A stretch of DNA of 64,000 nt from Sphingomonas asaccharolytica NBRC 15499. GTDB lineage: Bacteria > Pseudomonadota > Alphaproteobacteria > Sphingomonadales > Sphingomonadaceae. Where the stretch lies: positions 20,001-84,000 of the forward strand of contig NZ_BCYU01000001.1 in the NCBI RefSeq assembly GCF_001598355.1, written 5' to 3'. The notes beneath the pieces are model-generated. The model was not told the origin of the DNA and did not search any database. It was given only the letters and a program-made list of their open reading frames with translations. The first letter of the stretch is position 1; every line of letters begins with the position of its first letter. Below are positions 23,353-44,081 of this stretch, one piece after another. Made by a program: the position numbers and the translations under genes.

Positions 23353-24267
23353 TCAATAATCCCAGAAGGCAGGCACCCAGCGAAAGCGATCGCCGTTGAG
23401 GGCGACATGGCCGACCGACGGGAACGGCATATGCGTTGCCACGAGCAATTCACCGGAGGCCGCGGCTTCCTGCAACATGCGAATACGAACGCGGACCGAC
23501 TCCTCCGGGTCGTGTTCGAACCCGTTGTGCCAGTCGGGATGGTCGAACGCGACGGGGAACACGATGTCACCGGCGAAGGTCAGCCTGTCGCCGCCGGAGG
23601 TTACGCGGACCACGCTGTGTCCCGGCGTGTGACCGCCGGTGCGCATGGCGACGACGCCAGGGGCAACTTCATGCTCGTCCTCAAACGTCTGCAGCTTGTT
23701 GTGATACTGGTCGAGGAACTGCTTGGCGGTCGACCGGAGTACCTCCGGCACCGGATCCGGCATATCGGTTTGCGAGAAGTCGGGCGCCGCCCAGAAATCG
23801 ACCTCCGCGGCGGCAACGTGAATCCGCAGGTCCGGACGCAACCGGCTCTTCACGTCGTCGTCAAGCAGCCCGCCGACATGGTCCATGTGCATGTGCGTGA
23901 GCACGACGTCGGTCACCGATCCCAGATCGATGCCGGCCGCCTCGATCCGCCGAAGCGACTGGCCGGCACGCGGAAAGCCGTCGAACTGCCCGCCCAGACC
24001 GGCGTCAATGAGAATGGTTTGATCGCCGCTGCGCACCACTAGCACGTTCAGCGCCCAGTCGAACGCGTCGGGGCCAAGGAACATGTCCTTGAACCATGCA
24101 TCGCGCTCGGCGGGATCGACGTTGGTCGACATAGTTTCAGTAGACAGCGGCAGCACGCCGTCGCTGATCACCAGCACCTCGATGTCGCCGATCCGCAGCG
24201 CATAGCGTGACGGGACCAGCTCGTCAGACCCCGGTCCGACGGGGTTCGTAATATTGTCCGGCTTCAT
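23353..24267 (-). CDS. Metallo-beta-lactamase fold hydrolase
   Basis: 304-residue cytoplasmic MBL-fold enzyme. Zinc motif HMHMDH (near residue 122) in VVLTHMHMDHVGG, further ligands in GGHTPGHS, AGDIVF and the C-terminal ATHMPFPSVGH. This is the layout of the quorum-quenching lactonase/hydrolase branch, but substrate cannot be read from sequence. It is the last gene of the long minus-strand operon starting with the FAD monooxygenase, about 200 bases after the acetoacetyl-CoA synthetase gene. In that context it may open a lactone or hydrolyse a thioester in aromatic-compound breakdown. Confidence 0.85.
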   Translation of the reverse strand: MKPDNITNPVGPGSDELVPSRYALRIGDIEVLVISDGVLPLSTETMSTNVDPAERDAWFKDMFLGPDAFDWALNVLVVRSGDQTILIDAGLGGQFDGFPRAGQSLRRIEAAGIDLGSVTDVVLTHMHMDHVGGLLDDDVKSRLRPDLRIHVAAAEVDFWAAPDFSQTDMPDPVPEVLRSTAKQFLDQYHNKLQTFEDEHEVAPGVVAMRTGGHTPGHSVVRVTSGGDRLTFAGDIVFPVAFDHPDWHNGFEHDPEESVRVRIRMLQEAAASGELLVATHMPFPSVGHVALNGDRFRWVPAFWDY

Positions 24268-26509: not shown

Positions 26510-28990
26510 TCAGTAACGGTAACTGAGCGTAACGCCGTAGGTCGCCGGCCTTCCCGTCAAGCGAACCACCGTGTCGATCACGTCGGTCACGTTGGTGAGG
26601 TAGAATTTGTTGGTGACGTTTCGACCCCAGATCTGGGCCTTCCAGCGCGAATCCAGAGCGCCCACGCCGAGCCGGAGATCGAGCGTGGCATATCCCGGTA
26701 TTTCGAACTCGCTCAGCCCACCGAACGCCGCCTGCGATGACGAGCGATAGCTGATATTGCCGCCCATCGTCAGTTCGACCTTGGCATTCAGCGGCACGCG
26801 ATAATCTACATCCGCGTTCGCCTGCCATTTCGGCGTGCCCGGGAATGACGCACCCTTGACGTCGATCGTCGTCCCGTTCGGGTCATTGGTCATGAAGCTG
26901 CGGTCGATCCGTGTATCGACATAGGTCACGCCGGCATTGAGTCTCAGGCCATCGATGGGCCGCCAGTTCAGGCTGAGCTCCCCGCCCCGCACGGAGGAGC
27001 GCGGGATCTGCACCAGGCTCGGCAGATTGCCGAATGCGGTGCCGACATAGCCGGCGATCTGCTTGTCGTTATATTTGTAGTAGAAGCCGGCACCGTCGAG
27101 CTGCAGCCGCCGATCGAAGGCGGCAATCTTGAAGCCGGCCTCGAACGCGAGCACCGATTCCTGCGTCACCGGATCGAACTGGGTCGGGAACAGTCCCGGC
27201 ACCGTGGGGAAACTACCTGCTTTATAGCCTTTGGTCACATTGGCGTAGAGCAGCGTGTCGCGATCCGGCTTCCAGTTCAGCCCGGCGCGCCACGAAAAAT
27301 TGTCTTCCGACAACCGCTTCGCGACGATCGGGACCGGGACATTGGGCGTTCCATAGCCGACCTCGCCCAGCGTCGCGCAGGCACCCGGCTGGAGCGCCAC
27401 CACAGGGGCGGCAAAACCGCGCAGCAGGTTGGAAACGAAGCTGAAGACCGTCGAGATGTCGCCATTGCCGCTATCGTAGAGGCAACCGCGGAACCGATTG
27501 GTCTGATCATTGTAGCGGCCCGACAATTGCAGGGTCAGGCCATGGACGAATTCATAGTCGATGCTGCCGAACCCGGCCTTCGACTCGATCTTCTGCGCGT
27601 TGCCGATGGCGAATTCGCTGTACCGGAGCGGTCCAAACCCGCTGTTGCTGGCCAGGATATTGCCGATTTCCCGGTCGTCGGTCGTGTCATTGCTGTAATT
27701 GCCGCCGATCATCCAGCGAAGCGGCCCCTTCGCGCTCGCAATGCGCAGTTCCTGCGAGAAGCTCTTGATCCGCGCATCGATCGTCAGCCGCAAATTTGTC
27801 TCGGGAACGCCGTCGGTGTCGACGGGCGCCCATTGCTTGAGGTGCGAATAGGCGCTGATCGACGTCAGCGTGATCGAATCCGACAGATCGATGTCGCCGC
27901 GCAGCGAGAATTGATAGAAATGGTCGTTGCGCCTGAGGCTGACGCCAGGGTCCCAATCAGCAATCCGGCTCTTGTCCGGCGCCGGTGCGATGGCAAGCAA
28001 GGCCGCCTCGAGATCGGTATAGCCCCCGGCCGACGCCGGAATCTGCGGATCGTAGCGCATGAACTGTCCGGCTTGCGTCTCGCTCTTGTCGATCCATCCG
28101 TTGGCGATCAGTTCGAGCCGCAGACCGCTCGTGCTCCAGTCCAGGATCGCGCGGCCGGTCGTGAAATCGCGCCGTCCGAGCCGGTCCGACGGCCGGCTCT
28201 GGCTGACCTGCCATCCGTCGGCATATTCATGGCGAACCGCGATGCGTCCCTTCAGATCTCCGGAGATCGGGCCGCTGACGAACCCTTGCGCATCGACCTC
28301 ATTGAAACGGCCATAGGTAAAGTCAAAGCCCGACGTCAGAGCGTCGGTCGGCTTGGCGGGAATATAGTTGATCGCCCCGCCCGTGGAATTCTGCCCGAAC
28401 AGCGTGCCTTGCGGCCCCTTCAATATCTCAACGCGCTCGACGTCGAACGACGCGCCCTCGGTCATCGCCAGATAGGGGATCGGCACCTGGTCGCTGTACA
28501 CGCTGACCGTCGGCGCGACGGCCACCGCGACGTCATAGAATCCGATGCCCCGGATCGTGAGGACCGGCGATCCGTACGTGCTGGGTCTGAAGGTCAGTCC
28601 TGGCGCGATCTTTTCAAGATCGGCCGGGCGCGTGATGCCGGCGTTGGCGAGCTGGTCGCCCGATGCCGCGGTGATCGAGAGCGGCACGTCGCTCAATCGC
28701 TCGGACCGTTTCTGCGCGGTGACGATGATATCGTCGGGCGCGGAATCGTTCTTGCCGGTGTCGGCCGGCCGCGCGGCCGACGCCACTTGGTCGGTACAAG
28801 ACAAGCGGCCGTCCCCGGCCGTTGGGCCTGGCGCTGCCATGGATGGCGCGGGCTCCTTGGGAACACATCCCGGCGCGGTGTCCGTCGTTCCGCCTTGCCT
28901 CGTGGACGAGAGCGCTTGCTGAACGGCCCAAGCGGGTGTCGACAGGCCAAGCGCGGTCGTGCCCAACAGGATCACAAGATACTGTTTCAT
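26510..28990 (-). CDS. TonB-dependent outer-membrane receptor
   Basis: 826-residue receptor. It has a signal peptide (MKQYLVILLGTTALGLSTPAWA), a short extra N-terminal region, the plug domain beginning DDIIVTAQKRSERLSDVPLS, the ERVEILKGPQGTLFGQNSTGG motif, and a beta-barrel ending in SYRY with terminal aromatic. Sphingomonads use such receptors of the IAT..AQKR type for uptake of aromatic and hydrophobic compounds. It lies inside the catabolic operon between the Rieske oxygenase and the acetoacetyl-CoA synthetase, so it probably imports that pathway's substrate. Confidence 0.92.
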   Translation of the reverse strand: MKQYLVILLGTTALGLSTPAWAVQQALSSTRQGGTTDTAPGCVPKEPAPSMAAPGPTAGDGRLSCTDQVASAARPADTGKNDSAPDDIIVTAQKRSERLSDVPLSITAASGDQLANAGITRPADLEKIAPGLTFRPSTYGSPVLTIRGIGFYDVAVAVAPTVSVYSDQVPIPYLAMTEGASFDVERVEILKGPQGTLFGQNSTGGAINYIPAKPTDALTSGFDFTYGRFNEVDAQGFVSGPISGDLKGRIAVRHEYADGWQVSQSRPSDRLGRRDFTTGRAILDWSTSGLRLELIANGWIDKSETQAGQFMRYDPQIPASAGGYTDLEAALLAIAPAPDKSRIADWDPGVSLRRNDHFYQFSLRGDIDLSDSITLTSISAYSHLKQWAPVDTDGVPETNLRLTIDARIKSFSQELRIASAKGPLRWMIGGNYSNDTTDDREIGNILASNSGFGPLRYSEFAIGNAQKIESKAGFGSIDYEFVHGLTLQLSGRYNDQTNRFRGCLYDSGNGDISTVFSFVSNLLRGFAAPVVALQPGACATLGEVGYGTPNVPVPIVAKRLSEDNFSWRAGLNWKPDRDTLLYANVTKGYKAGSFPTVPGLFPTQFDPVTQESVLAFEAGFKIAAFDRRLQLDGAGFYYKYNDKQIAGYVGTAFGNLPSLVQIPRSSVRGGELSLNWRPIDGLRLNAGVTYVDTRIDRSFMTNDPNGTTIDVKGASFPGTPKWQANADVDYRVPLNAKVELTMGGNISYRSSSQAAFGGLSEFEIPGYATLDLRLGVGALDSRWKAQIWGRNVTNKFYLTNVTDVIDTVVRLTGRPATYGVTLSYRY

Positions 28991-29022: not shown

Positions 29023-30066
29023 TTAGCTTATTTCTCTCTTCGTCAGCGGCTTCTCGATGGCCCGCTTGGCCTGCAGCACAGCGGCGACCACGCGGCGGGC
29101 CCGGACGGCGCCTTCGTCAAAGGGCAGTAAAAGGGGCTTCATCTCGTCGAACGTGCGAGCGCCCATCTGCGTCTGGACGGCTTCGAGCATCGGCAGATCC
29201 TCATGAAGGAACGCCTGCTCGGTGGCGCTGGTGATGAGGTCGTCCAGCTGAGGATTCTCCTGCCCGAAATCGCGGGTCATCGCCCAGAAATAGTGGGTCC
29301 TGGTAGCCGTTTCGGGCGTCAATATGTCGAGCCCGAGGGTGGATATGCCGTCGCTGCGCGGATGCCCGGCCGGCGTGACGCCGACATCGAGCAGCATGTT
29401 ACCCGGCGGATCCCAGCGCATGTCGAGCCAGTGGTCGACATTCTTGCCATAGTTTCCGAACAAGGCGTCCCATACCGGCGGCGCGGGCGCGTCGGGGCAC
29501 CAACGATCGGAAAAGATCGTCGTACCGTGCTGCTGGACCCGATGCTTGCCGGTGGCGATGGCGTCGCTGCCGATCCCGTTCTTGTGCAGGAAGGCGACAT
29601 GCGACAGATCCATCAGATTGTCGGTGATCAGTTCGTAATGCGCGTCGACCGTGAAGACGCCGCCGACGGTGCGCAGGCCGTCATCGACCAAGCAGGAAAA
29701 ATCGGGAATGAGGTCGGCGTCCGCCTGGTCGGGATCGCCGAACCACAGCCAGATCAGCGAATAGCGCTCGATGACCGGAAAGGACCGGACCCGTGCCGCT
29801 TTCGGCGCATGTCCATGCGGGCTATGGACGCACTGCCCCTCGCTCGAGAAGACGAGCCCGTGATAGGGGCACTGGATCCGATCGCCCTCGACGGTCCCGA
29901 GGTGAAGCGGCGCGAAGCGATGCGGGCATTGGTCGTGGAGCGCGGCGATCGCGCCATCGCCCTTGCGGTACAGCACGACGGGAATGTCGCACAAACGCCG
30001 CGCGAAGGGCTGGTCGGCGACTTCACGCGCCCAGGCAGCGACATACCATGCCTGATCAATGAACAT
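29023..30066 (-). CDS. Rieske non-heme iron oxygenase, alpha subunit type
   Basis: 347-residue ring-hydroxylating or O-demethylating oxygenase. I start at the ATG giving MFIDQAWYVAAW, as in vanillate demethylase-like enzymes. The Rieske 2Fe-2S site is QCPHRFAPL and CPYHG (two Cys, two His). The catalytic domain has the iron motif NLMDLSHVAFLH (Asp/His/His). It resembles the single-component-alpha VanA/dicamba-demethylase group. No ferredoxin or reductase gene is next to it, so reducing partners must come from elsewhere. Overlaps the FAH gene by 11 bases. Substrate unknown. Confidence 0.9.
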   Translation of the reverse strand: MFIDQAWYVAAWAREVADQPFARRLCDIPVVLYRKGDGAIAALHDQCPHRFAPLHLGTVEGDRIQCPYHGLVFSSEGQCVHSPHGHAPKAARVRSFPVIERYSLIWLWFGDPDQADADLIPDFSCLVDDGLRTVGGVFTVDAHYELITDNLMDLSHVAFLHKNGIGSDAIATGKHRVQQHGTTIFSDRWCPDAPAPPVWDALFGNYGKNVDHWLDMRWDPPGNMLLDVGVTPAGHPRSDGISTLGLDILTPETATRTHYFWAMTRDFGQENPQLDDLITSATEQAFLHEDLPMLEAVQTQMGARTFDEMKPLLLPFDEGAVRARRVVAAVLQAKRAIEKPLTKREIS

Positions 30067-31045
30067 GGGCGGTGTCCTCCACGATCGTGCTCCGCTGGCC
30101 GCCAAGACGAAGGCCTCGCCGCGCGTCACGCAGGGTCAGCGAGAGGGTTTCGCCGGGTTGCAGAAAGGCCGGCGCGCCAAGTGCCATGCGGATCTCGTCA
30201 CGGCGACGGATGTCGTCGACCAGATGTGCGCTCAATATCCCGATCACTTCTGGCGTCCCGCGGGCAATGACGCCGCCCGGCGTTCCGGTGAGAAGCAGGT
30301 CGCCGCGCTTAAGGTCCTGAAGTCCCGCGATCTCGGTCAGCGCTTCTTCGGGCGGATAGATGAAGCTTGCGCTGCTCGCCGCCTGGCGCAACTCGCCTTC
30401 CCGGCTCAACGCCAGATCGAGCTGACCGATCGTCTCGGCGACATCGCCTTGATCGAGATAATAGAAGACCGGGCCGGTCGGACAGAAGGTGCGGTAGCTC
30501 TTGCCGCGATACCATTGCAGGAACGACGCGCCGAACATCGTATCCCGCGCCGACACGTCGTTGCACAGCACGACGCCGGCGACGAACGATCCGATGTTCG
30601 AGCGATCGACCACGGCGCCCGACCCCAGCGATCTACGCAGGACAATCCCGATCTCCGCCTCATAGTCGAGCAGCTCGACACCGGCTGGCCGCACGATATC
30701 GGCATAGGGACCGCACAGCGAACTGCTCGCCTTGGCGAACAGCAGATTGGCCCTGCGCTGATGATGTCCCGCCTCGGCCGCGTGATCGCGGTAGTTCAAT
30801 CCCTGGCAGATGAGTGTCGCATCCGCCGTCACCGGGCTGAGGATCGCGCGCGCCGGCACGGCCACCGGGCCCGAGGGCAGCGCCCGCCCCGCATCGAGCT
30901 CGGCGACAAGATCGCCGAGGGTGGTGACCTCGGTCGCAAGGTCCTGCGCCTCGACCAGATCGTCAGGATGGATCGGCGCGGCGCCGGTGACGACGGCCCA
31001 TCGCGCTCCTTGTCCGACATCGTATCCAATGATCATCGAGGCCAT
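30056..31045 (-). CDS. Fumarylacetoacetate hydrolase (FAH) family protein
   Basis: 329 residues. FAH C-terminal fold: LICQGLNYRDHAAEAG, then the metal-binding ELLDYEAEIGIVL (Glu..Glu), CNDVSARD, and DLLLTGTPGGVIARG. Family members cleave C-C bonds of acylpyruvates or fumarylacetoacetate, or isomerise/hydrate ring-cleavage products, with Mg2+ or Ca2+. Its location after the ring-cleavage dioxygenase candidate and before the synthetase for acetoacetate suggests cleavage of a dienoate-type product giving a keto acid. The exact reaction cannot be told from sequence. Confidence 0.88.
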   Translation of the reverse strand: MASMIIGYDVGQGARWAVVTGAAPIHPDDLVEAQDLATEVTTLGDLVAELDAGRALPSGPVAVPARAILSPVTADATLICQGLNYRDHAAEAGHHQRRANLLFAKASSSLCGPYADIVRPAGVELLDYEAEIGIVLRRSLGSGAVVDRSNIGSFVAGVVLCNDVSARDTMFGASFLQWYRGKSYRTFCPTGPVFYYLDQGDVAETIGQLDLALSREGELRQAASSASFIYPPEEALTEIAGLQDLKRGDLLLTGTPGGVIARGTPEVIGILSAHLVDDIRRRDEIRMALGAPAFLQPGETLSLTLRDARRGLRLGGQRSTIVEDTAHVH

Positions 31046-31066: not shown

Positions 31067-32113
31067 TCAGCGCAGCCACGGCCGGGGCGGTGTTGCCAGC
31101 GCGTCGAACATCGCATGGACAGCGGCGGGTGCGTCGGCCGGCGGCGGCCCCGGCGGCCGCATCGAATCCGGCAAGTCGTCGCCCCAGGCCCAAAGCCCGC
31201 CGCGCGTCAGCGGGTGGACACCGGTCGGGTAATCGGACGTCATCACGTCCCCGTCGGCATAATGCTCCCACTCGTCGCCGGCGCCGTCTTTCCAATAATC
31301 GAAGATCTGACTGCCAAGGACGTGCCGGCCGATCCCCCAATGATGGCTCCAGCCCTGCGCCCGGAGATGCTGTTGTCCTTGCCCGACGGCGTCGAGATCG
31401 ATGGTTTCGGTCGAGACATGGAGCATCCGCGCTTCCGGCCCGGCCAGCAAAGCGAGGCTATGGTGATCGGCGGGCTGATCGCCGCGGTCGAGCCGGAAGA
31501 AACCCAACACCGGTATGCCATCGGCAATCGTGGCCACATCCGATGCCAGGAAGCCGAACCGCTGGCGGTACCACTCCATCATGTCGGGAAAGGCCTGCGT
31601 CTGGAGCACGACATGGCCGATCCTGAAGACCGGCGCGGGCGCCGGATCCGACCGGACCGGCCGGTTGATCCGCGGCGTGGCGTTCGGCAGGTTGACGTCG
31701 CTGAGCGCGCTGCGTGCGGGAAGCGCCGGCAGCGGCTCTGCACCCCACAGGAAATCGACCCTGTTGCCGTCCGGATCGACAAGACGCACCCGCTCGCCGC
31801 CGCCCGGCCCGTCCACCGGCGCGACGTCGCGGCTTTCGAACCGCGCCAGCTTGTGGAGATCGTCGCGGCTGTGTGCGTTGAGGGCGAAGCCTACAAACGC
31901 ATCACGCTCGGCCGCGATCACTTCAACGCAGTAGCTGTCGCGTCCATAGCCCCGAAAATACTGCCGGCCGCGGCTGGCCGGGGCCAGCGGGATGAAGCCG
32001 AAGTCAGCGAGAAAGCGCGCCATGCCGTCCGGATCGCGGCGCTGGTAGCTGACATGCGCTAGGGCATCGGCACGGACGATCGGATTGATGGGCGGATCGA
32101 CGGGCGGGATCAT
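31067..32113 (-). CDS. VOC-family protein, extradiol ring-cleavage dioxygenase candidate
   Basis: 348 residues made of two glyoxalase-like (VOC) halves, the size and layout of type I extradiol dioxygenases. Candidate Fe(II) ligands are His in RIGHVVLQT, His in SHHWGIGRH and Glu in WEHYADGD. The N-terminal half (ALAHVSYQRRDPDGM) is the non-catalytic copy. It overlaps the FAD monooxygenase gene by four bases and precedes the FAH gene by 21, the usual order hydroxylase, dioxygenase, hydrolase for catechol meta-cleavage. Substrate unknown. Confidence 0.82.
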   Translation of the reverse strand: MIPPVDPPINPIVRADALAHVSYQRRDPDGMARFLADFGFIPLAPASRGRQYFRGYGRDSYCVEVIAAERDAFVGFALNAHSRDDLHKLARFESRDVAPVDGPGGGERVRLVDPDGNRVDFLWGAEPLPALPARSALSDVNLPNATPRINRPVRSDPAPAPVFRIGHVVLQTQAFPDMMEWYRQRFGFLASDVATIADGIPVLGFFRLDRGDQPADHHSLALLAGPEARMLHVSTETIDLDAVGQGQQHLRAQGWSHHWGIGRHVLGSQIFDYWKDGAGDEWEHYADGDVMTSDYPTGVHPLTRGGLWAWGDDLPDSMRPPGPPPADAPAAVHAMFDALATPPRPWLR

Positions 32114-33735
32114 TGCGCTGCTCCTCTGATGCGATCGATCACCGCCAGCGGGTCGTCGGGCATGGCGTTACCGCGCCAGGCGACGTGCTGGTCGGGACGG
32201 ACGAGGACGAAGTCGCGCTCGTAGATCGCGCGGGCATGGTCGTCGCGAATATCGAGCAGCTTGATGGGCACGCCGCGCTGCGCTGCCGCGGACAACAAAG
32301 CGTCGGCAGCCTCGTCCGTAAAACGAACGAGCGTGAACCACGGTCCAAAATGATCGAACAGCGCGCTTCCGTCCGCCAGGAACAGGTGCGGCGCACGCGC
32401 ACCTGGCCAGGTGCTCGGCACATAGGCACGCGGCGTCCATTCAGGTTCGTCGGCTTCGGTGCAGACGATCGGCGAATGGCGGTAGCGATAGCCGAGCTCG
32501 ACGCCGCGCGCCTCGTTTTCCAGATTGCCGAGCGAGGTGATCAGCTCGCCATATCTCGTTCGGGCGGCGTCCCCGTCCGGCGTCGCTTCATGGATCACCG
32601 GATCATAGGCATTGGCGATTTCGAAGCGTACCTGCATATGGCCGCCCGACGCTTCGACGACGCCGGCACCCACCGGCCGGCGCTCGGCTTCGATGCTCGA
32701 CAACAGCGCCGGGCCGCCCCACCCTGCGAGGACCGCGGCAAATTTCCAGGCGAGATCGACGGCATCAGCGATGCCGGTATTCATCCCATAGCCGCCGGTC
32801 GGGATGACCTGGTGCACCGCGTCTCCGGCCAGCCAGACTCGCCCCCGACCATATCCCGTCGCGAGTACCAGGTGCGGCGACCAGGGATTGGCCTGAATCA
32901 CTTCGAGCGGGAACTCGCGGCCCAGCGCGTCGAAGACGAGCTGCTCGGGCACCACCTCTTCTGCGGCGGCGCCCTCGGGCAGGATGCAGTGCAACGTCCA
33001 TATCTCGCTGTCGTCTTGCGCAATCAGCGTGGCGCCGCTCGGCGATTGATAGTGCCAGGCGATGCCGAAGCGCTGAAGCAGGTCGCGCGCCTCGGACCTG
33101 AAATGCACCATGTAGAAGGGCGCCACATTATGTATCCCCTCCCAGCGAAAGCCGAGCGCCTCGCGCACCAGGCTGCCGCCGCCGTCGCAGCCCGCCAGCA
33201 AGGCGCAGCGCTTGGTTTCGCGCCGGCCGGTCGCGACCTCGCGCAAGCTGACCTCGACACCCTCGCCATCATCCGCGAAACTCTCGAACGCCCAGCCAAA
33301 TCGGACGTCGACCAGCGGGGATTGTTCGAGAAATGCACGTAGCGTCGGCTCGAAAACGACCTGGCTCAGCCGCATATAGGGTTCGAGCGGTTGCGAGCCG
33401 TCATTGGTCTCGCGGATTTGATCGCGCCAACTGTCGACGTCAGGATAGGGGAAACGCGCTAGTTCCCATTCGTTGAGCCGCGTTACCCAGACCACGTCCA
33501 TCGGGCTGCTGCGCGGAACGGCAGCATCGCGGATCGCCTCCGCCAGGCCCATGCGGCGAAACAGCTCCATGCTCCGGCCATTAGTGACATCCATCTTGGG
33601 ATGGCGCGTCGTTGTCGGGTTCCGCTCGACGAGCAGCACGCGAATACCGCGCGACTGAAGCTCGTATGCGGTCGCGAGACCAACGGGTCCCCCACCTGCA
33701 ACAATGACAGGAATATCCAACAATGCCCTCTCCAT
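32110..33735 (-). CDS. FAD-dependent aromatic monooxygenase (MhpA/PheA/TfdB type)
   Basis: 541-residue flavoprotein hydroxylase. N-terminal Rossmann motif VIVAGGGPVGLATAYEL and Arg-rich RGIRVLLVERNPTTTRHPK, the middle GCDGGGSLVREALG (DG motif) and the FAD/ribityl motif LAGDAVHQVIPTGGYGMNTG. A thioredoxin-like C-terminal domain ends the protein. Such enzymes add one hydroxyl to a phenolic ring using NAD(P)H and O2. First gene of the seven-gene minus-strand catabolic operon and preceded by a putative TetR operator about 58 bases upstream of the start. Confidence 0.92.
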   Translation of the reverse strand: MERALLDIPVIVAGGGPVGLATAYELQSRGIRVLLVERNPTTTRHPKMDVTNGRSMELFRRMGLAEAIRDAAVPRSSPMDVVWVTRLNEWELARFPYPDVDSWRDQIRETNDGSQPLEPYMRLSQVVFEPTLRAFLEQSPLVDVRFGWAFESFADDGEGVEVSLREVATGRRETKRCALLAGCDGGGSLVREALGFRWEGIHNVAPFYMVHFRSEARDLLQRFGIAWHYQSPSGATLIAQDDSEIWTLHCILPEGAAAEEVVPEQLVFDALGREFPLEVIQANPWSPHLVLATGYGRGRVWLAGDAVHQVIPTGGYGMNTGIADAVDLAWKFAAVLAGWGGPALLSSIEAERRPVGAGVVEASGGHMQVRFEIANAYDPVIHEATPDGDAARTRYGELITSLGNLENEARGVELGYRYRHSPIVCTEADEPEWTPRAYVPSTWPGARAPHLFLADGSALFDHFGPWFTLVRFTDEAADALLSAAAQRGVPIKLLDIRDDHARAIYERDFVLVRPDQHVAWRGNAMPDDPLAVIDRIRGAAQ

Positions 33736-33793
33736 CCCCGGCCGTTCGCCGATGTTGGAGCGAGAGCTAACACAGCCTCCGCAAGAGAGTCCA

Positions 33794-33821
33794 TTAAAAT
33801 TACACGATCGTGGTGTTTTAT
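33794..33821. promoter_or_regulatory. Putative TetR operator, copy 1
   Basis: Palindrome-like site centred on ACGATCGT (33804-33811) with A/T flanks: TAAAATTACACGATCGTGG followed by TGTTTTATT. It matches sites at 36758-36785 and 38475-38502 over about 27 bases. It lies 58 bases before the monooxygenase start and overlaps the stop codon of the TetR gene. Confidence 0.75.
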
Positions 33822-34492
33822 TGAAAGACGGCGCGTTCGACCAGCTCCCAATAGCGTTCGACAGCCGCCTCGTCGGTCAGAGAAAACCCTATGGTTTGAG
33901 ACATTTCGCCGCTCAACGACGATAGAACGGAGGTCATTCCGATCAGCATATAATAGACCAGATCGGGGTCAGCGGCGATCAACTCGCCATCTTTCTGCGC
34001 CGCCCGGATCTGCGGCATGATGCGCTCGCGAGTCTTGCGCAGGATATTCTCGATGAGCCACGGGAGTCGCGGACTGGCGCCCTGATTCTCGCGAAGCATG
34101 AAATGATGGAACGCGGTGTGGTCGACCGTGAAGCGGAGGAAGCTGCGGAACTCGGTGCGCACCCGGTCGGACGCGCTCATCGTCGAGTCCGGCGGAATGG
34201 CTTCGTCCCATTGCGCCTCGATCTGTTCGAAGGCGTATTCGGCGCACGCCTTCCACAGCGCGTCCTTGGTTCGAAAATGATAGGTGATCAGCGTGTAGTC
34301 GAGCGCGGCTCGCTCGCCGATGCGGCGGACGCTTGCACCGTCGAAACCGCGCTCGGCAAATTCGATCAACGCTGCGTCCAATATCGCCTTCCGGGTTTCG
34401 ACCGCCCGCAGTTGCTCGCGCCGGTTGGTCTTGCGGCGTTGACTGGGCTGGGGCGGGGAATTGTCTTTCTGTTCCGCTGGCGTAGACGTCAT
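33818..34492 (-). CDS. TetR-family transcriptional regulator
   Basis: 224 residues from the ATG giving MTSTPAEQKDNSPPQ. The N-terminal basic stretch (SQRRKTNRREQLRAVETR) leads into the TetR helix-turn-helix: AILDAALIEFAERGFDGASVRRIGERAALDYTLITYHFRTK. The C-terminal domain carries a helical ligand pocket. The upstream part of the open frame is not coding-like. It lies upstream of the catabolic operon in the same direction, and three near-identical palindromic sites nearby are the natural candidates for its operators. It is probably a repressor released by the pathway substrate or a product. Confidence 0.9.
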   Translation of the reverse strand: MTSTPAEQKDNSPPQPSQRRKTNRREQLRAVETRKAILDAALIEFAERGFDGASVRRIGERAALDYTLITYHFRTKDALWKACAEYAFEQIEAQWDEAIPPDSTMSASDRVRTEFRSFLRFTVDHTAFHHFMLRENQGASPRLPWLIENILRKTRERIMPQIRAAQKDGELIAADPDLVYYMLIGMTSVLSSLSGEMSQTIGFSLTDEAAVERYWELVERAVFQ

Positions 34493-34689
34493 GATGTTCC
34501 TGTTCCCGGCTGGCGAAGATGCCGTAACGCCTATCGACCCTAGTGTGAATGGCGCGGCCCGCAGACGCGCTGCAACACGGCGCCAGGACGTTCCGCCAGG
34601 TCGCGACATGCCATCGTGGGGGTAAAACACTGCCTTGGAATAGTTGCCCCGAGGCGGCCGCACCGCACAAAACGGGCCTGCCGGAGGAG

Positions 34690-35634
34690 ATGAGCTTGCC
34701 CGATCGCCTTTTGAACAAATTCCCGTTCGCCTTCGTGGCGGCTGCTTTGTTGGCGGTCTCCACACCCGCTCGGGCACAGGAGCTGCCCTATCCCGCCGAC
34801 TTTCGCACCAGGAACATCGAAGCGCATGGCGTGACGATCCATGTGCGCATTGGCGGCAGCGGACCCGCGGTTGTCCTGATCCACGGCTTTGGCGAAAGTG
34901 GTGATATGTGGGCTCCACTGGCTGCAAGCTTGGTCCGAAATCATACCGTCATCGTCCCTGATCTTCGTGGCATGGGTCGATCGTCGAAGCCGGCGGGCGG
35001 CTTCTCCAAGATGAGCCAGGCCACCGACATCGCGGAGTTGCTGGACGCGCTGAAGATCGCGCAATCCGACGTCGTCGCGCATGATATCGGCAACATGGTC
35101 GCTTTTGCCTTTGCGGAAAAATATCCGACCCGGGTAACCAAGCTCATCGTGATTGATGCGCCGATCCCGGGTATTGGCCCTTGGGACGAGATCGCGAAGA
35201 GCCCGGTGACCTGGCATTTCCGTTTTGGCGGCCCCGACATGGAGCGGCTCGTGAAGGGACGCGAGCGCATCTATCTCGATCGCTTCTGGAACGAATTTTC
35301 GGCGGACCCAAAGCGCTTCACGGAACGATCGCGACGCCATTATGCCGCGCTTTATGCGCTCCCCGGCGCAATGCACTCTGTGTTCGAGCAATATCGTGCC
35401 TTTGATCAGGATGCGGACGATAACCGGGCGTGGCTGGTCGCTCACGGAAAACTGGCGATGCCGGTGCTCGCGTTGGGCGCGGAAAAGGGCCTCGGCATGC
35501 AAATGGCGGACATCATGCGCGCCGCTGCTTCCGATGTGACCGCCGGGTTGATCACCAACTCCGGTCACTGGGTCATGCAGGAGAACCCCAATGCGACCGT
35601 TCGCCTCGTCCAGGCTTTCATCGATAAGCCCTGA
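34690..35634 (+). CDS. Exported alpha/beta hydrolase (epoxide hydrolase/dehalogenase type)
   Basis: 314 residues. Start chosen at the ATG preceded by GGAGGA; it gives a signal peptide ending in ARAQELPYP. Oxyanion motif HGFGESGDMW, and nucleophile elbow VAHDIGN with Asp in place of Ser, as in soluble epoxide hydrolases and haloalkane dehalogenases. The catalytic His is in SGHWVMQE. The only plus-strand gene near the TetR regulator, transcribed divergently from it. A role in the neighbouring catabolic pathway is possible but not shown. Confidence 0.85.
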   Translation: MSLPDRLLNKFPFAFVAAALLAVSTPARAQELPYPADFRTRNIEAHGVTIHVRIGGSGPAVVLIHGFGESGDMWAPLAASLVRNHTVIVPDLRGMGRSSKPAGGFSKMSQATDIAELLDALKIAQSDVVAHDIGNMVAFAFAEKYPTRVTKLIVIDAPIPGIGPWDEIAKSPVTWHFRFGGPDMERLVKGRERIYLDRFWNEFSADPKRFTERSRRHYAALYALPGAMHSVFEQYRAFDQDADDNRAWLVAHGKLAMPVLALGAEKGLGMQMADIMRAAASDVTAGLITNSGHWVMQENPNATVRLVQAFIDKP

Positions 35635-35732
35635 GCAGCCGAACGCTCATCATGCAACCACCCGGCGCACCGCCGCCGGGCGGTTGCGGGGGCCGCTCCC
35701 GTCGTCGTCATCGACAGGAGCGCGTCGCCCCC

Positions 35733-36674
35733 TCACCTCGCGACTTCGGCGATCAGCGCCTTCAATGCCGAGAGTCCGCCATCGATGTCGTCCTTCGCAC
35801 TGGGAACGCCCCGCGCCAGGCAGATATAACCGTGAACCGTCCCCGCGGCTTCGCGGTAGATGGTCGGAACGCCCGCCGTGACCAGCTTTGCCGCATAGGC
35901 ACGGCCCTGGTCGCGCAAGGCATCCAGCCCGGCGGTCACGAGTAAAGTCGGCGGGAGACCTTCGGCCGGAAAGTCGAGCGGGGACGCACGGCGATCAGCC
36001 GGATCGGCGGCATACAGGCTGTTGAACCAGGTCATGCCATCGACCGACAGCAGATAGCCTTCGGCAAAGTCGCGAAAGCTTTGCCAATCACCCTTCCTCG
36101 TCACGACAGGGTAGATCGGATTGATCGCAAGGACCGGCTTCGATGCCGGTTTGTCGCGTAACGCCAGGGCCGTCGTAATGGCCATGTTGCCGCCCGCGCT
36201 ATCCCCCGAAAGCACGAGCCCGGTGCACGGGAAATGGTCGGCGATCCAGCGCGCGGCGGCCTCGGCGTCGTCGTGCGCCGCGGGGAAAACGTGCTCTGGC
36301 GCGCGGCGATAGTCGACCGAGACGACCGGAATGTCGAGCTGCCGGGCAGCCTCGGCGCAATAAGCGTCGTGCGTGTCGAGATCGCAAATCACCCAGCCGC
36401 CGCCATGATAGAAGACCATTACCGGTCCGGCTTCCCGATCGGGACGGTTGTCATAGACCCGAAGCTTGAGCTCGCCTCCCGGCCCCGGAACCATGATTTC
36501 TTCGACCTTGGCGATATCGCCGCGCGGCGCATCGGCCGCCTGCCCCAGCCCGGCGATCATCGCGCGCGCCGTCTCGGCCCCCAATTCCTCCATCGGCGGC
36601 CCTTCCTGCGCGTTCAGGAACCCCAGGAACTCGGCCACGTCCGGCCGTACAAAGTGAGCGGCTTGCTCCGTCAT
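35733..36674 (-). CDS. HSL-family alpha/beta hydrolase (esterase)
   Basis: 313-residue carboxylic ester hydrolase of the hormone-sensitive-lipase (bacterial family IV) type. Oxyanion motif HGGGW, nucleophile GDSAGG with catalytic Ser, Asp in VTAGLDALRDQG and His near the end in AGTVHGYI. Start at the ATG with GGGAGAAG upstream rather than the ATG 51 bases before. Cytoplasmic (no signal peptide). A copy of the putative TetR operator lies about 84 bases upstream, which ties it to the catabolic regulon; it may free an ester-linked substrate. Confidence 0.9.
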   Translation of the reverse strand: MTEQAAHFVRPDVAEFLGFLNAQEGPPMEELGAETARAMIAGLGQAADAPRGDIAKVEEIMVPGPGGELKLRVYDNRPDREAGPVMVFYHGGGWVICDLDTHDAYCAEAARQLDIPVVSVDYRRAPEHVFPAAHDDAEAAARWIADHFPCTGLVLSGDSAGGNMAITTALALRDKPASKPVLAINPIYPVVTRKGDWQSFRDFAEGYLLSVDGMTWFNSLYAADPADRRASPLDFPAEGLPPTLLVTAGLDALRDQGRAYAAKLVTAGVPTIYREAAGTVHGYICLARGVPSAKDDIDGGLSALKALIAEVAR

Positions 36675-36757
36675 CGATCTTCTCCCTCGCGCCAATCGGC
36701 GTTGCGTCCGACTTGATCTGCGCAAGCGCCGCTACCACGCGGCTCGCGCATCTGTCC

Positions 36758-36785
36758 ATAAAATTCTACGAACGTGGTGTTTAAT
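36758..36785. promoter_or_regulatory. Putative TetR operator, copy 2
   Basis: TAAAATTCTACGAACGTGG followed by TGTTTAAT, about 84 bases upstream of the HSL-esterase start and downstream of the MBL gene. Differs from copy 1 mainly in the core (ACGAACGT instead of ACGATCGT). Confidence 0.72.
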
Positions 36786-36802
36786 AGAAAAGAGCTGGGA
36801 GC

Positions 36803-37849
36803 CTAATCGACGCGGAGGCTTTGCTCGGTGGCGTAGCACTGCTCCCAGATGAAGGTATCGAAGGCGGCGAGCCGGTTTTTCCACTTGGGCGTCATCGTCG
36901 CCACGCACACGCGCGCGACCCGCGCGGTATAGTCGTTGGCCAAGGCCCAGGGATTGCCGAAATCCGCCGGATCGAGGACCTGCCCGTATGGCTGACTCTT
37001 GAGCGCCGCACCGGCGGCCGCCTGGATGTCATCATCGAACGCGATCTGCAGCTTCACGTCCGCGTGTGTGCCGATCCGGCTGACATGGCCGCCGACGAAC
37101 TTCTCGAAGGGATGACGATCGAGATCGCGGACCTGCTGGAAATATCCGGGGATGTCCTGTGCGACACCGAACGCGCGCCACGGCATCCAGCCCGGAAACA
37201 CGATGTCGACAAACATCAGGGTCTTCTGGGCCGGCGCGTAGATCTCGATATTGCCGGGCTCGTGCCCGTTGCCGGGATAGGACAGCTCGAGCGTCTGCGT
37301 GCCCAGCTTGAGGGTATAGTTCCTGTCGAACGTCACCGTCGGCAGCGGTCGCTGCGGGTCGGCGGCGCGGGCGAGCAGCCGCCTGGTCTCTTTCTGGGCG
37401 ATGATCACGGGGTGGCCACCCAGCGTCGCGGCACCGCCGATATGATCGATGTGCGAGTGACTGTAGATGAGATGGGTGATCGGCTTGTCCGTGATCTCAG
37501 CGATCGCCTGGCGGATCTTGCCCGCATAGGATGGCGGCGCGTCGACCACGACGACGCCGGTCCCATAGACCATGAACATCGACTGATAGGCGCCGTCGGT
37601 GACCATATAGAGGCCCTCCCCCAGCTTCTCGATCCGGTAGCCCTTGGCGGGGTCGATGGCCGGGCCCTGAGCCGATGCGGGGATCGGGAGATATTTGTCG
37701 ACGCGCACCCCGATCGGCGCAATGTCCGGCATGGCGGGATAGGGCGTCACCGCCTGCCCTGTGGGCGCGGGGTCTTCGGCCCGGGCAAGGCCGACGACGC
37801 AGCACGACACGATCAGCGCAAGGGCGCCATAGGTAGCACTTTTTGCCAT
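36803..37849 (-). CDS. Exported MBL-fold hydrolase
   Basis: 348 residues beginning MAKSATYGALALIVSCCVVG, a signal peptide ending near ARAEDP; an AGAGAG ribosome site lies just before. Zinc-binding HSHIDH in LIYSHSHIDHIGG, further His in GNGHEPGN and Asp in MFVDIVFPG. It resembles periplasmic MBL hydrolases of unknown substrate. A longer open frame upstream reads out of frame through the membrane-protein gene and is not coding. It follows that gene by about 70 bases in one operon under operator copy 3. Confidence 0.85.
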   Translation of the reverse strand: MAKSATYGALALIVSCCVVGLARAEDPAPTGQAVTPYPAMPDIAPIGVRVDKYLPIPASAQGPAIDPAKGYRIEKLGEGLYMVTDGAYQSMFMVYGTGVVVVDAPPSYAGKIRQAIAEITDKPITHLIYSHSHIDHIGGAATLGGHPVIIAQKETRRLLARAADPQRPLPTVTFDRNYTLKLGTQTLELSYPGNGHEPGNIEIYAPAQKTLMFVDIVFPGWMPWRAFGVAQDIPGYFQQVRDLDRHPFEKFVGGHVSRIGTHADVKLQIAFDDDIQAAAGAALKSQPYGQVLDPADFGNPWALANDYTARVARVCVATMTPKWKNRLAAFDTFIWEQCYATEQSLRVD

Positions 37850-37917
37850 CTCTCTTTTCCTTGTTTGAGTGAGCCGCGGCACGACCATGATCCCCGGTGG
37901 CCCGGCACTGGAGATCA

Positions 37918-38325
37918 TCACGCGGTCTTCATTGCCCGTCGTTCCCGGACATCGATGGCGATCCCCACGAGCCCCACGACGGCCGGCAGGTAGACGGCAT
38001 GGCCGTTCTTCAGGATGGTGTCGGCGCCGCAGATGCCGGCGCCGATTTCCCATAGATGGAAGAAGCCGTGCAGACCGAGCCAGGCAGTCGCCGCGGCCCA
38101 CAGCCAGATCCGCTGGGCGGGGAAGAAGATACCGGTCACATAGCCGGCACCGATCATCACGTAGATGAGGCCGATATCGCGGAGAAAATGCTGATTGAAC
38201 GGGCCGGTCGCCGGCACCGTCGGCACCGCATAATACCAGAATTCCGGATCGTAGAGCATGATGATGCCGTTCACGAACATGGCGATGCCGAGCAGCGCCA
38301 TCAGACCCTTGTTGAATTTGCTCAT
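37918..38325 (-). CDS. Small integral membrane protein, paralogue of 43653-44081
   Basis: 135 residues with four predicted membrane helices. Conserved loop TGPFNQHFLRDIGLIY and, before the last helix, HGFFHLWEIGAGICG, with several His that could bind metal or protons. No function known to me. The second copy in this window shares both motifs. Each lies next to hydrolase or reductase genes, here an exported MBL hydrolase. First gene of a two-gene operon about 150 bases after operator copy 3. Confidence 0.72.
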   Translation of the reverse strand: MSKFNKGLMALLGIAMFVNGIIMLYDPEFWYYAVPTVPATGPFNQHFLRDIGLIYVMIGAGYVTGIFFPAQRIWLWAAATAWLGLHGFFHLWEIGAGICGADTILKNGHAVYLPAVVGLVGIAIDVRERRAMKTA

Positions 38326-38474
38326 TGAAACCTCCCCGTTGGTGGCATTTGGCGACGACCCGCCTGCGCAACCGCGCAGGCGATCGACCTTCCCTGACCG
38401 AGTGGCTCGCGCAGTTTCGTGCGCGAGCCCGTACGGCCCTGACGATCCAGCTCAGCCAAATGTGACATGAGCTA

Positions 38475-38502
38475 GTATTTTTACACGATCGTAGAATTTT
38501 AC
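38475..38502. promoter_or_regulatory. Putative TetR operator, copy 3 (opposite orientation)
   Basis: Read on the minus strand: TAAAATTCTACGATCGTG then TAAAAATAC. The half TAAAATTCTACGA is identical to copy 2, the core ACGATCGT to copy 1. It lies about 150 bases before the membrane-protein/MBL pair. Confidence 0.72.
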
Positions 38503-38561
38503 TCGTGACGAAGGCCGATTGCAAGATGGCGCGACACGCCCAAAGTCAGATCGTCGCTTGA

Positions 38562-40511
38562 TCAGTTGGAAGAACGAAAGCCGATGCGCGCATGCGTACC
38601 GTCACAGAACGGCTTGTTGGCGCTCCCCCCACACCGACAGAGCCGGGTGCTCCGAACGCAGGAAACCCGCCGGCCGGTACCGCTGGTGATTTCCAAATTG
38701 CCTTGGATCTGCAGCGGCCCGTCGGTCTGCGGCATGACCGACAAGGGACCGTCGCGCACCGCGAGTGCCGGCGTATCCTCGCTGGCCGGCTCGCCGGTCG
38801 CGGCGAAGCCGATCCGGAGGTGCGAGTTGTCGCAGAACGGTTTGTTGGCCGACGCGCCGCACCGGCACAATGTCGCCCGAAAGCCGGCTTGCTCACCATC
38901 GATCGAGAGACTCGCGCGCACCGCATAGGGCCCGTTCTCGCGCAGCGACAACAGGTTTACCGGCGGCGGCGCCTCGTCATGACCGTCCTTTCGCTGGTAG
39001 CTCAACGCCCCCGACGGGCATTGCCGGATCGTGCCGCACAGCAGCTCGGTTTCGGTGGCGTCCGGCTGGACCCACGCGCCCGCCATATTGGCAAGAAAGG
39101 TCGCGGGCGCCTGGGTGACGCAGAAGCGGGCGTGGATGCAGCGCTTCTCGTTGAACAGGACCGTGACATCATGTCCCACGATCGTCTCCAGGCCGTCGCT
39201 AGCCTTGACTGACGGCGCAGCCGGCGCAGGCGCAGCCGGTGATGCCACAACGGCCGCTGCCTGCGGTGCCGGTGCATTGCGCAGCCGCCCGACTAGATCG
39301 TGCAGCACCTTGGCGGCGCGTTGGCCGCGCGGATCGGCCTGGTCGATCGCGTCCGCGGCTGTGCCCAGTTCTTCCATCCGCTCGAGAAAATACCGCCGCG
39401 CGCTCGCCCCTGGCGGCAACGACGCGGTATCGCGCAAGGCCGTGAACGAAACGCCGGCATGGCAGTGCGGATTGGACGGCCCGGCCGGCAGGCGCGCGGC
39501 GCGCTCCGCGAGCGGCGTGAGCGCCTGCATCAAGCCCACTGCTGTTCCGACATAGAGCAATTTGTCGTCGTCGCTCGACGGCAGAGCATAGACCTCGGCG
39601 AGCAGACGCAGCATCAGCGCATAAGCCGCATTTGCCAGGTCGATCGTCGCCACGGCATCGGTATCTTCGATCCAGACGCGCCCTTCGGGCTGTGGCGGGC
39701 GCCGCAGCACGGGATTTACAGCGGCGGGATACGCGGGCGAGAAGTCCGGATTCTTGGCTTTGAGCGCCTTATATTCTTCGCGGATCGCGCTGAACCGCTG
39801 GAAGTGCGAATTGTCGCGATCGGCCGGCGCGCCTTCGCCTTCGATGATGATGGTCTCGATTGCAGCCAGCGCGCTTTCCAGATGTATGACGGGCCGGGCA
39901 CCGACCAGACGAATCTCGGCAGGACTGAGCTGAAGGGCGGGATCGCCACAAAACACCGCTGCCTCGCCAATCTGATCGACGAACTGGCGCAAATTGCCGC
40001 TGATCTCCCCATAGAATTCGCCGACGGTGCAATAATCATAGCCGGTCGGCGTGAGCCGCAGCCCCGGAATCGCCCGCGTCAAATTGGCCGGGCTTTCGAA
40101 GCCCGGACCGTCCGGCTCGTCCGATCCCTCCGGTCGTTCCAGATAGACGAAATGCTGGATCACCGCCTCGTCGAACGGTGCCAGCCGAACGACCAGCCCA
40201 GCAGGCAGATAGCCGGGGTCGAGCGGGAAGTTGGCGCGACCAAGATGCGGCGCCCCGCCCAATGCCGCGGTAATGTTCCAGACCGCCACCAAGTGGCTCA
40301 TTTCGTCGATCGCCACGCCCAGGATCGCACGGCGCCACCGGGCCACCGCCTCCGCTTCTTCCGCCGTCAGCCCCTCGCCTTCGCCGTCGCGCAGGCTGAA
40401 GCCGGCGTAGAGGTAGGTGCACATCAGACAATGTTCGATTTCCGCCGCTTCGTAGAAGGCGTGCATGATCTTTTCCCGACTGACCGCCGGCGCGAGACTA
40501 TCCTGGGGCAT
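38562..40511 (-). CDS. Ferritin-like / 4Fe-4S / double CDGSH iron-sulfur fusion protein
   Basis: 649 residues with three parts. Residues 1-350: a ferritin-like diiron domain of the VioB/RebD C-terminal type (iminophenyl-pyruvate dimer synthase-like), with AAEIEHCLMCTY and AIDEMSHL as ligand helices. About 450-515: a divergent ferredoxin-like 4Fe-4S segment (RCIHARFC ... RQCPSGAL). C-terminus: two CDGSH-type motifs, CRCGASANKPFCDNSH and CRCGGSANKPFCDGTH, each with three Cys and a His for a 2Fe-2S cluster. A soluble, cofactor-rich redox protein; reaction unknown. The combination is uncommon. Neighbour genes are hydrolases and NmrA-like reductases. Confidence 0.85.
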   Translation of the reverse strand: MPQDSLAPAVSREKIMHAFYEAAEIEHCLMCTYLYAGFSLRDGEGEGLTAEEAEAVARWRRAILGVAIDEMSHLVAVWNITAALGGAPHLGRANFPLDPGYLPAGLVVRLAPFDEAVIQHFVYLERPEGSDEPDGPGFESPANLTRAIPGLRLTPTGYDYCTVGEFYGEISGNLRQFVDQIGEAAVFCGDPALQLSPAEIRLVGARPVIHLESALAAIETIIIEGEGAPADRDNSHFQRFSAIREEYKALKAKNPDFSPAYPAAVNPVLRRPPQPEGRVWIEDTDAVATIDLANAAYALMLRLLAEVYALPSSDDDKLLYVGTAVGLMQALTPLAERAARLPAGPSNPHCHAGVSFTALRDTASLPPGASARRYFLERMEELGTAADAIDQADPRGQRAAKVLHDLVGRLRNAPAPQAAAVVASPAAPAPAAPSVKASDGLETIVGHDVTVLFNEKRCIHARFCVTQAPATFLANMAGAWVQPDATETELLCGTIRQCPSGALSYQRKDGHDEAPPPVNLLSLRENGPYAVRASLSIDGEQAGFRATLCRCGASANKPFCDNSHLRIGFAATGEPASEDTPALAVRDGPLSVMPQTDGPLQIQGNLEITSGTGRRVSCVRSTRLCRCGGSANKPFCDGTHARIGFRSSN

Positions 40512-43652: not shown

Positions 43653-44081
43653 TCAGGCTGTGGCCGCCGATCCCTTACCCGGATGAACCGCGCGTTCGCT
43701 CACCGACCAAAGCGCGAGCACCGCACTGATCAGCGCGGGAAGCGTCACTGCCGCGAAATCGCGGACCAGTGCCGAGGGTCCGCAAATGCCCACAGCGACT
43801 TCCCAGAAGTGAAACAGTGCATGGCCGCACAACCACAAGGATGCCGCCGACCAGAGCGCCGCGCGCCACGCCGGCTGCGCGGTTCCGACCAGGAACGCGG
43901 TGCCGATGAACAGAAAGATGAGACCGATATCGCGCAGGAAGTGCTGGTTGAACGGACCCGTCGTGGTCACGCCCGGCACCGCGAAATACCAATTCGCCGG
44001 CGAGATGAGCATGAATGTACCGTTGGCCAGCGCAGCAACGCCGAGCACGACGGCGGCCCAGAGGCATGTTTGCCGCAGCAT
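43653..44081 (-). CDS. Small integral membrane protein, paralogue of 37918-38325
   Basis: 142 residues, four predicted membrane helices. It shares VPGVTTTGPFNQHFLRDIGLI and HALFHFWEVAVGICG with the copy at 37918-38325. Function unknown. Lies 43 bases after the NmrA-like gene upstream and about 70 before the kinase core on the minus strand, so probably one operon with them. Confidence 0.72.
   Translation of the reverse strand: MLRQTCLWAAVVLGVAALANGTFMLISPANWYFAVPGVTTTGPFNQHFLRDIGLIFLFIGTAFLVGTAQPAWRAALWSAASLWLCGHALFHFWEVAVGICGPSALVRDFAAVTLPALISAVLALWSVSERAVHPGKGSAATA

Follow-up and report, generated by a model that had tools for sequence, protein, structure and literature searches.

KstR2 and NicR2 are TetR-family local repressors of catabolic gene clusters, whose palindromic operators lie at promoters of the catabolic genes nearby. 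In a 64,000-nucleotide stretch of Sphingomonas asaccharolytica NBRC 15499 (contig NZ_BCYU01000001.1, positions 20,001 to 84,000; hereafter the window) we find a gene for a TetR-family regulator together with three palindromes that are its predicted operators. The window regulator shares with KstR2 and NicR2 the TetR fold and the presence of palindromic operators beside neighbouring catabolic genes, but its pathway is another one, identity in structural alignments is low (20–23% to KstR2, 18% to NicR2) and the KstR2 and NicR2 operators probably differ in sequence from those of the window. By sequence, its best solved relative is RutR (1.5e-9), the pyrimidine-utilisation regulator, which also ranks first in the two fold lists, sharing that rank in the second. 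However, the window regulator scores far below the RutR family cut-offs (42.9 bits against 368 for TIGR03613 and 40.2 against 230 for NF011584), and no rut genes are found among the window targets.

A plasmid cluster of Sphingopyxis granuli RW412 (locus L029, NZ_CP063840) resembles the window in its gene order, a TetR gene followed by genes for a FAD-dependent aromatic monooxygenase (FMO), a VOC-family protein and a fumarylacetoacetate-hydrolase family protein (FAH), in the identity of its TetR (54%) and FMO (59%) proteins, and in a palindrome that overlaps the TetR stop codon. It differs in the palindrome itself, TGTCAACTGACA, in the recognition helix of its regulator (QQLVPYH), in having a second, divergent TetR gene and in the absence of a Rieske or acetoacetate-CoA ligase (AACS) gene from the stretch. 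The fde naringenin cluster of Herbaspirillum seropedicae is alike in gene types, a likeness of description only: there, a single phenolic ring is reported to be the target of a FAD monooxygenase, an extradiol-type dioxygenase and a Rieske protein (PMC11069340, PMC8552027). Its regulator is different, FdeR being reported as a naringenin-dependent activator (PMC10799723).

The regulator and its three predicted operators lie in the window as follows.

33818–34492, minus strand: TetR-family regulator of 224 amino acids, assigned from a TetR_N match above cut-off, a fold model and structure matches
33794–33821, minus strand: operator 1, between the TetR and FMO genes; counterpart in S. lycopersici (locus L034) at 10671
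36758–36785, minus strand: operator 2, upstream of an HSL-type esterase gene; counterpart in L034 at 8689
38475–38502, minus strand: operator 3, upstream of a gene pair for a small membrane protein and a metallo-beta-lactamase-fold (MBL) protein; counterpart in L034 at 6974

The regulator scores 46.7 bits against a cut-off of 24 for Pfam TetR_N; its model (pLDDT 89.5) shows an all-helical TetR fold, and TetR-family structures match residues 28–224 with Z up to 19.0. The three sites read directly, around ACGA(T/A)CGT, at the positions given by an earlier sequence-only reading of this DNA, and their coordinates agree with its statement that all of them lie upstream of minus-strand units. Each is an imperfect 28-bp palindrome in which 18–20 of the 28 positions equal their own reverse complement, with a centre of ACGA^TCGT or ACGA^ACGT (an ACGAWCGT core). 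The same reading had called the sites near-identical, a somewhat strong term that fits sites 1 and 2 (84% identity over 32 nt) better than site 3, which is 66% identical to site 1 over that length. The TetR gene does adjoin the first site, as had been said; as a refinement, site 1 also overlaps the TetR stop codon (33818–33820). The distance from operator centre to gene start is ~72 nt for FMO, ~97 nt for the esterase, with its ATG placed at 36674, and ~163 nt for the membrane protein (start 38325).

The sites stand well apart from their background. With a 20-nt pattern and up to 3 mismatches they are the only matches in the window, against a mean of 0.00 in 100 dinucleotide-preserving shuffles, and a symmetric matrix built from the three scores them at 37–42 bits, with 14.1 as the next-best score in the window and 16.8 as the largest in 30 simple whole-window shuffles. 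A genome scan for additional copies, a check suggested earlier, returned none: two 26-nt consensus patterns with up to 3 mismatches recover only these three sites from the genome of the organism (4,608,803 bases, 191 contigs), the reversed-pattern control giving 0. Among 100 genomes, this one and 99 relatives, a single relative has a match, in one orientation and with 3 mismatches, and the reversed control likewise gives one. None of these 99 relatives carries the window TetR at an expect value (E) of 1e-30, at which it is found in its own genome only.

Orthologues were found further afield, in a scan of species genomes from which the best 80 of 201 TetR relatives, corresponding to 76 loci, were kept. 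Among these best 80 of 201, TetR identity is 87% in S. lycopersici, 69–80% in Sphingobium, 69–72% in Burkholderia/Paraburkholderia and 53–57% in two metagenome-assembled genomes (MAGs), and a sister group from Bradyrhizobium, Paraburkholderia, Cupriavidus and others shows 42–51%. Within 397 genomes of the family, 17 match the regulator at 1e-25, all except its own at only 27–34% identity; 15 plasmid records hold a match, five of them at 47–54% identity, and a search of viral contigs found 0 relatives. A tree built from 42 proteins sets clade A (10 rows, recognition helix [YF]TLI[TP]YH) apart by a branch (82/98), and 19 of 20 clade-B rows form a branch of their own (98/92), with L043 outside both clades. 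Only 20 clade-B rows were taken into the tree, so that L045 and other clade-B loci are in the matrix test but outside it.

That test applied a matrix derived solely from the window sites to the fetched TetR loci, comparing each with 40 block shuffles. The matrix beats all 40 at 8 of the 9 loci in clade A and 28 of the 33 in clade B; for other TetRs it does so at 1 of 36 loci. These groups were fixed only after the locus scores had been seen. Four loci, L070 and L071 (41% and 40% identical; helix HTTVTHH) and L073 and L075 (36%), are counted here as controls; taken as orthologues they would make the total 36 of 46 rather than 36 of 42. L029, L030 and L033, which are without an ACGWWCGT site, belong to no group of the test. 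The operator consensus is WWAAAAYTCYACGWWCGTRGARTTTTWW for clade A (19 sites) and WYTAWACTTTACGATCGTAAAGTWTARW for clade B (44 sites), from sites chosen by hand.

The genes next to the operator differ between the clades. The operator precedes an FMO gene in 8 of 10 clade-A loci, namely the window, L034, L035, L036, L038, L039, L040 and L042; L037 has a weaker match before its FMO gene (best matrix score 21.3, just below its shuffle maximum), and L041 (18.9, just above its own) has no FMO in the stretch examined. Eight clade-B loci were followed gene by gene (L031, L032, L043, L044, L047, L049, L050 and L052), and seven have a CocE/NonD hydrolase gene, with the operator just before the gene or within an over-extended start of its open frame; L043 has FMO-VOC-FAH instead. 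In several of these eight loci a gene for an acyl-CoA ligase, an enoyl-CoA hydratase, an intradiol dioxygenase, an FMO or an iron-dependent alcohol dehydrogenase (Fe-ADH) is found nearby.

At the scale of whole genomes the operator is almost entirely confined to TetR loci. Pattern A matches 6 of 8 orthologue-bearing genomes and pattern B 9 of 15, and of the 27 distinct operator places in the 23 genomes searched, 26 are within the fetched TetR loci, comparing places by position and not by contig number, and the remaining one is 1.8 kb outside. Among 146 Bradyrhizobium genomes, 13 have the TetR (E ≤1e-50), and the operator is present in those 13 and in 0 of the 133 others. Pattern B was written after the loci of G503, G505, G506 and G510 had been seen; without these four Bradyrhizobium genomes the result is 9 of 9 versus 0 of 133. 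The Bradyrhizobium operator places number 15, and 14 of them are at most 8 kb from the TetR gene. The sole remote operator-like site is in genome G569 (contig C2, near 2220479), 47 kb from the TetR gene.

S. lycopersici has the same genes in the same order as the window, with counterparts of all three operators, and lacks the divergent hydrolase of the window. This is an alpha/beta hydrolase gene (34549–35634), divergent from the TetR gene and without an operator, that has no counterpart at that place in L034. In eight loci (the window, L029, L034, L035, L036, L039, L042 and L043) FMO is the next gene after that for TetR. Seven of them have a clear palindrome over the TetR stop codon, with the TAA within its left arm, and six of these seven palindromes have the ACG-N2-CGT form or come close to it; that of L043 is only weak. 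L029, and L030 and L033 at another gene, have TGTCAACTGACA palindromes, and the helix of their TetR proteins is QQLV[PV]YHF. A changed recognition helix thus seems to go with a changed palindrome, which is how co-variation of regulator and operator would look. A second TetR gene adjoins in L029, L030 and L033, however, and could be the binder. Two adjacent TetR genes are also found at the cluster of L043 (9108–9776 and 9986–10651); in all four loci, either could bind the palindromes.

After the right arm of many operators comes a short RGAC, as in TTTTAATGGACTC and TTTTATGGACAG. It is found on the minus strand of the window at 33789–33792 and 36754–36757, after operators 1 and 2, and after operators in L034, L035, L036, L039, L042 and L029; it is not present at window site 3. 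RGAC is perhaps a transcript start.

The genes downstream of the three operators, and a promoter-like sequence at the third, are as follows.

32110–33735, minus strand: FMO, from sequence family matches
31067–32113, minus strand: VOC-family (glyoxalase/extradiol dioxygenase) protein, from sequence family matches
30056–31045, minus strand: FAH, from sequence family matches
29023–30066, minus strand: Rieske oxygenase of the VanA type; the open frame runs from 30129 and a start at 30066 is assumed
26510–28990, minus strand: TonB-dependent receptor, named from sequence and matching TonB receptors annotated in L029
24466–26508, minus strand: AACS, with 643.5 bits for TIGR01217 against an equivalog cut-off of 520.9
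23353–24267, minus strand: MBL protein, last gene of the presumed operon
35733–36674, minus strand: HSL-type esterase (Abhydrolase_3)
37918–38325, minus strand: small membrane protein without an NCBIfam match, its membrane nature read from sequence
36803–37849, minus strand: MBL protein, from a sequence family match, paired with the small membrane protein
38496–38524, minus strand: promoter-like TTGCAA-17-TAAAAT, its second hexamer inside operator 3; 1 found in the region against 1.4 expected in shuffles

The unit behind site 1 comprises seven genes, FMO-VOC-FAH-Rieske-TonB-AACS-MBL. Of these, six overlap or lie close together; between them and the last, MBL, there is a gap of 198 bp, in which no site is found. 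The small membrane-protein gene behind site 3 resembles a second one at 43653–44081 (150 nt at 70% DNA identity), and an operator is found at the first only. A single minus-strand gene (38562–40511) immediately upstream of operator 3 fuses ferritin-like and divergent 4Fe-4S domains with CDGSH iron-binding fingers.

The computed sites are unique in the genome, conserved and found together with the regulator, which makes it very probable that the TetR protein binds the three palindromes as a dimer and controls the three minus-strand units, most likely as a ligand-released repressor over their promoters; we infer binding, repression and ligand release alike from these patterns. When substrate is absent, a TetR dimer would cover the promoters. 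A small aromatic substrate or pathway intermediate would free the protein, and the three units would be expressed together. The TonB receptor would then serve in uptake, the esterase and MBL proteins in hydrolysis, the FMO in ring hydroxylation and the VOC protein in ring cleavage, after which FAH would hydrolyse the ring-fission product and AACS would activate the keto acid. At site 3 the geometry suits repression because a −10-like hexamer lies inside the operator, and the promoter-like sequence recurs at the same place in L034 as TTGCAA-17-TAAAAA, again with the −10 inside the operator.

Resorcinol- or phloroglucinol-type rings would be converted by FMO hydroxylation, VOC cleavage and FAH hydrolysis to pyruvate and a beta-keto acid. 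That the inducer is a phenol of this type is a guess from the enzyme types, possible and yet more doubtful than not. A gene for a beta-keto acid cleavage enzyme (BKACE) lies near the FMO operon in several clade-A loci; the genome of the window has none, and S. lycopersici has one that is not at the TetR locus. AACS is found in the operon of the window and of L034, and both enzyme types act on beta-keto acids. Six tested clade-A BKACE proteins (L035, L036, L037, L039, L040 and L042) and the one of L029 pass the cut-off of NF053538, '3,5-dioxohexanoate:acetyl-CoA acetone transferase'. We rejected this name as a functional label and read the genes only as beta-keto acid cleavage enzymes, because one genome has nine copies above the cut-off.

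Several observations weigh against ligand-released repression by this TetR protein. No operator is found upstream of the window TetR gene, where the best score is 7.8 bits, and there is therefore no sign of autoregulation in the window, unlike L039 and L042, which do have sites there. Sites 1 and 2 show no recognisable promoter, and the promoter-like sequence at site 3 does not exceed what shuffled sequence yields. Five of the 33 clade-B loci fail the shuffle test, the genomes of L041 and L037 have no match to the operator pattern, and the probability of the Bradyrhizobium overlap under free mixing, 8e-19, comes from related genomes that are not independent samples. The lack of a recognised promoter at sites 1 and 2 leaves some room for the protein to bind the sites and activate the genes, or for only some of the three sites to matter in the cell, activation being known for some TetR-family proteins. 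We consider this unlikely, since the −10-like hexamer inside operator 3 is conserved in L034 and all three sites are kept in S. lycopersici.

The sites might instead bind a different regulator encoded elsewhere, with the adjacent TetR controlling something else, and the genome does encode at least 7 further TetR-like genes (E ≤0.001). This is very unlikely given that the 99 relatives, all of them without the TetR, yield just the one stray operator match, and that in Bradyrhizobium the operator keeps company with the TetR gene despite neighbouring genes unlike those of the window. Three similar copies within 5 kb could also suggest a dispersed repeat or mobile-element remnant without regulatory meaning. 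However, the stretches are palindromic, lie upstream of genes on one strand, have no further copies in the genome with up to 3 mismatches, keep their positions in S. lycopersici and match sites found near TetR genes in other genera, and we rejected this explanation, whose probability we regard as negligible. Control of the three units by the adjacent TetR, predicted as a regulon in the sequence-only reading, is thus supported by the co-occurrence of regulator and operator, the confinement of the operator to TetR loci, the conservation in S. lycopersici and the apparent helix-linked change of the palindrome.

Local TetR regulons are commonplace, and that of the window is a well-supported new one with a wider, apparently undescribed subfamily behind it. 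Six operator strings were found in no open-access paper, in a literature where such strings are seldom printed and many subscription journals lie outside the search, and titles and abstracts found by topic searches name no regulator with the window operator. In the main text of an article on the regulation of aromatic metabolism in Betaproteobacteria (PMC6449761), 'tetr' occurs 0 times. Members of this putative subfamily occur among Sphingomonadales, Burkholderiales and Bradyrhizobium; one actinobacterial locus (L072) and one Acidobacteriota MAG contig (L063), the latter possibly misbinned, have a member too. One clade has FMO-VOC-FAH, and the other a CocE/NonD hydrolase, often with an acyl-CoA ligase and an intradiol dioxygenase. 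We think it somewhat more probable than its opposite that these proteins form a TetR subfamily not yet described, whose conserved 28-bp ACGWWCGT operator is placed on different ring-degradation gene sets, the ligand therefore probably being a shared class of phenolic compound, and that operator and recognition helix changed together in the L029/L030/L033 branch, the operator to TGTCAACTGACA.

The firm predicted pairing of regulator and operator at an aromatic-degradation cluster makes its substrate searchable with a simple reporter. Moreover, regulons elsewhere among bacteria can be predicted from the ACGWWCGT-type operator. The two operator types may be a natural case of a recognition-helix switch in the TetR family.

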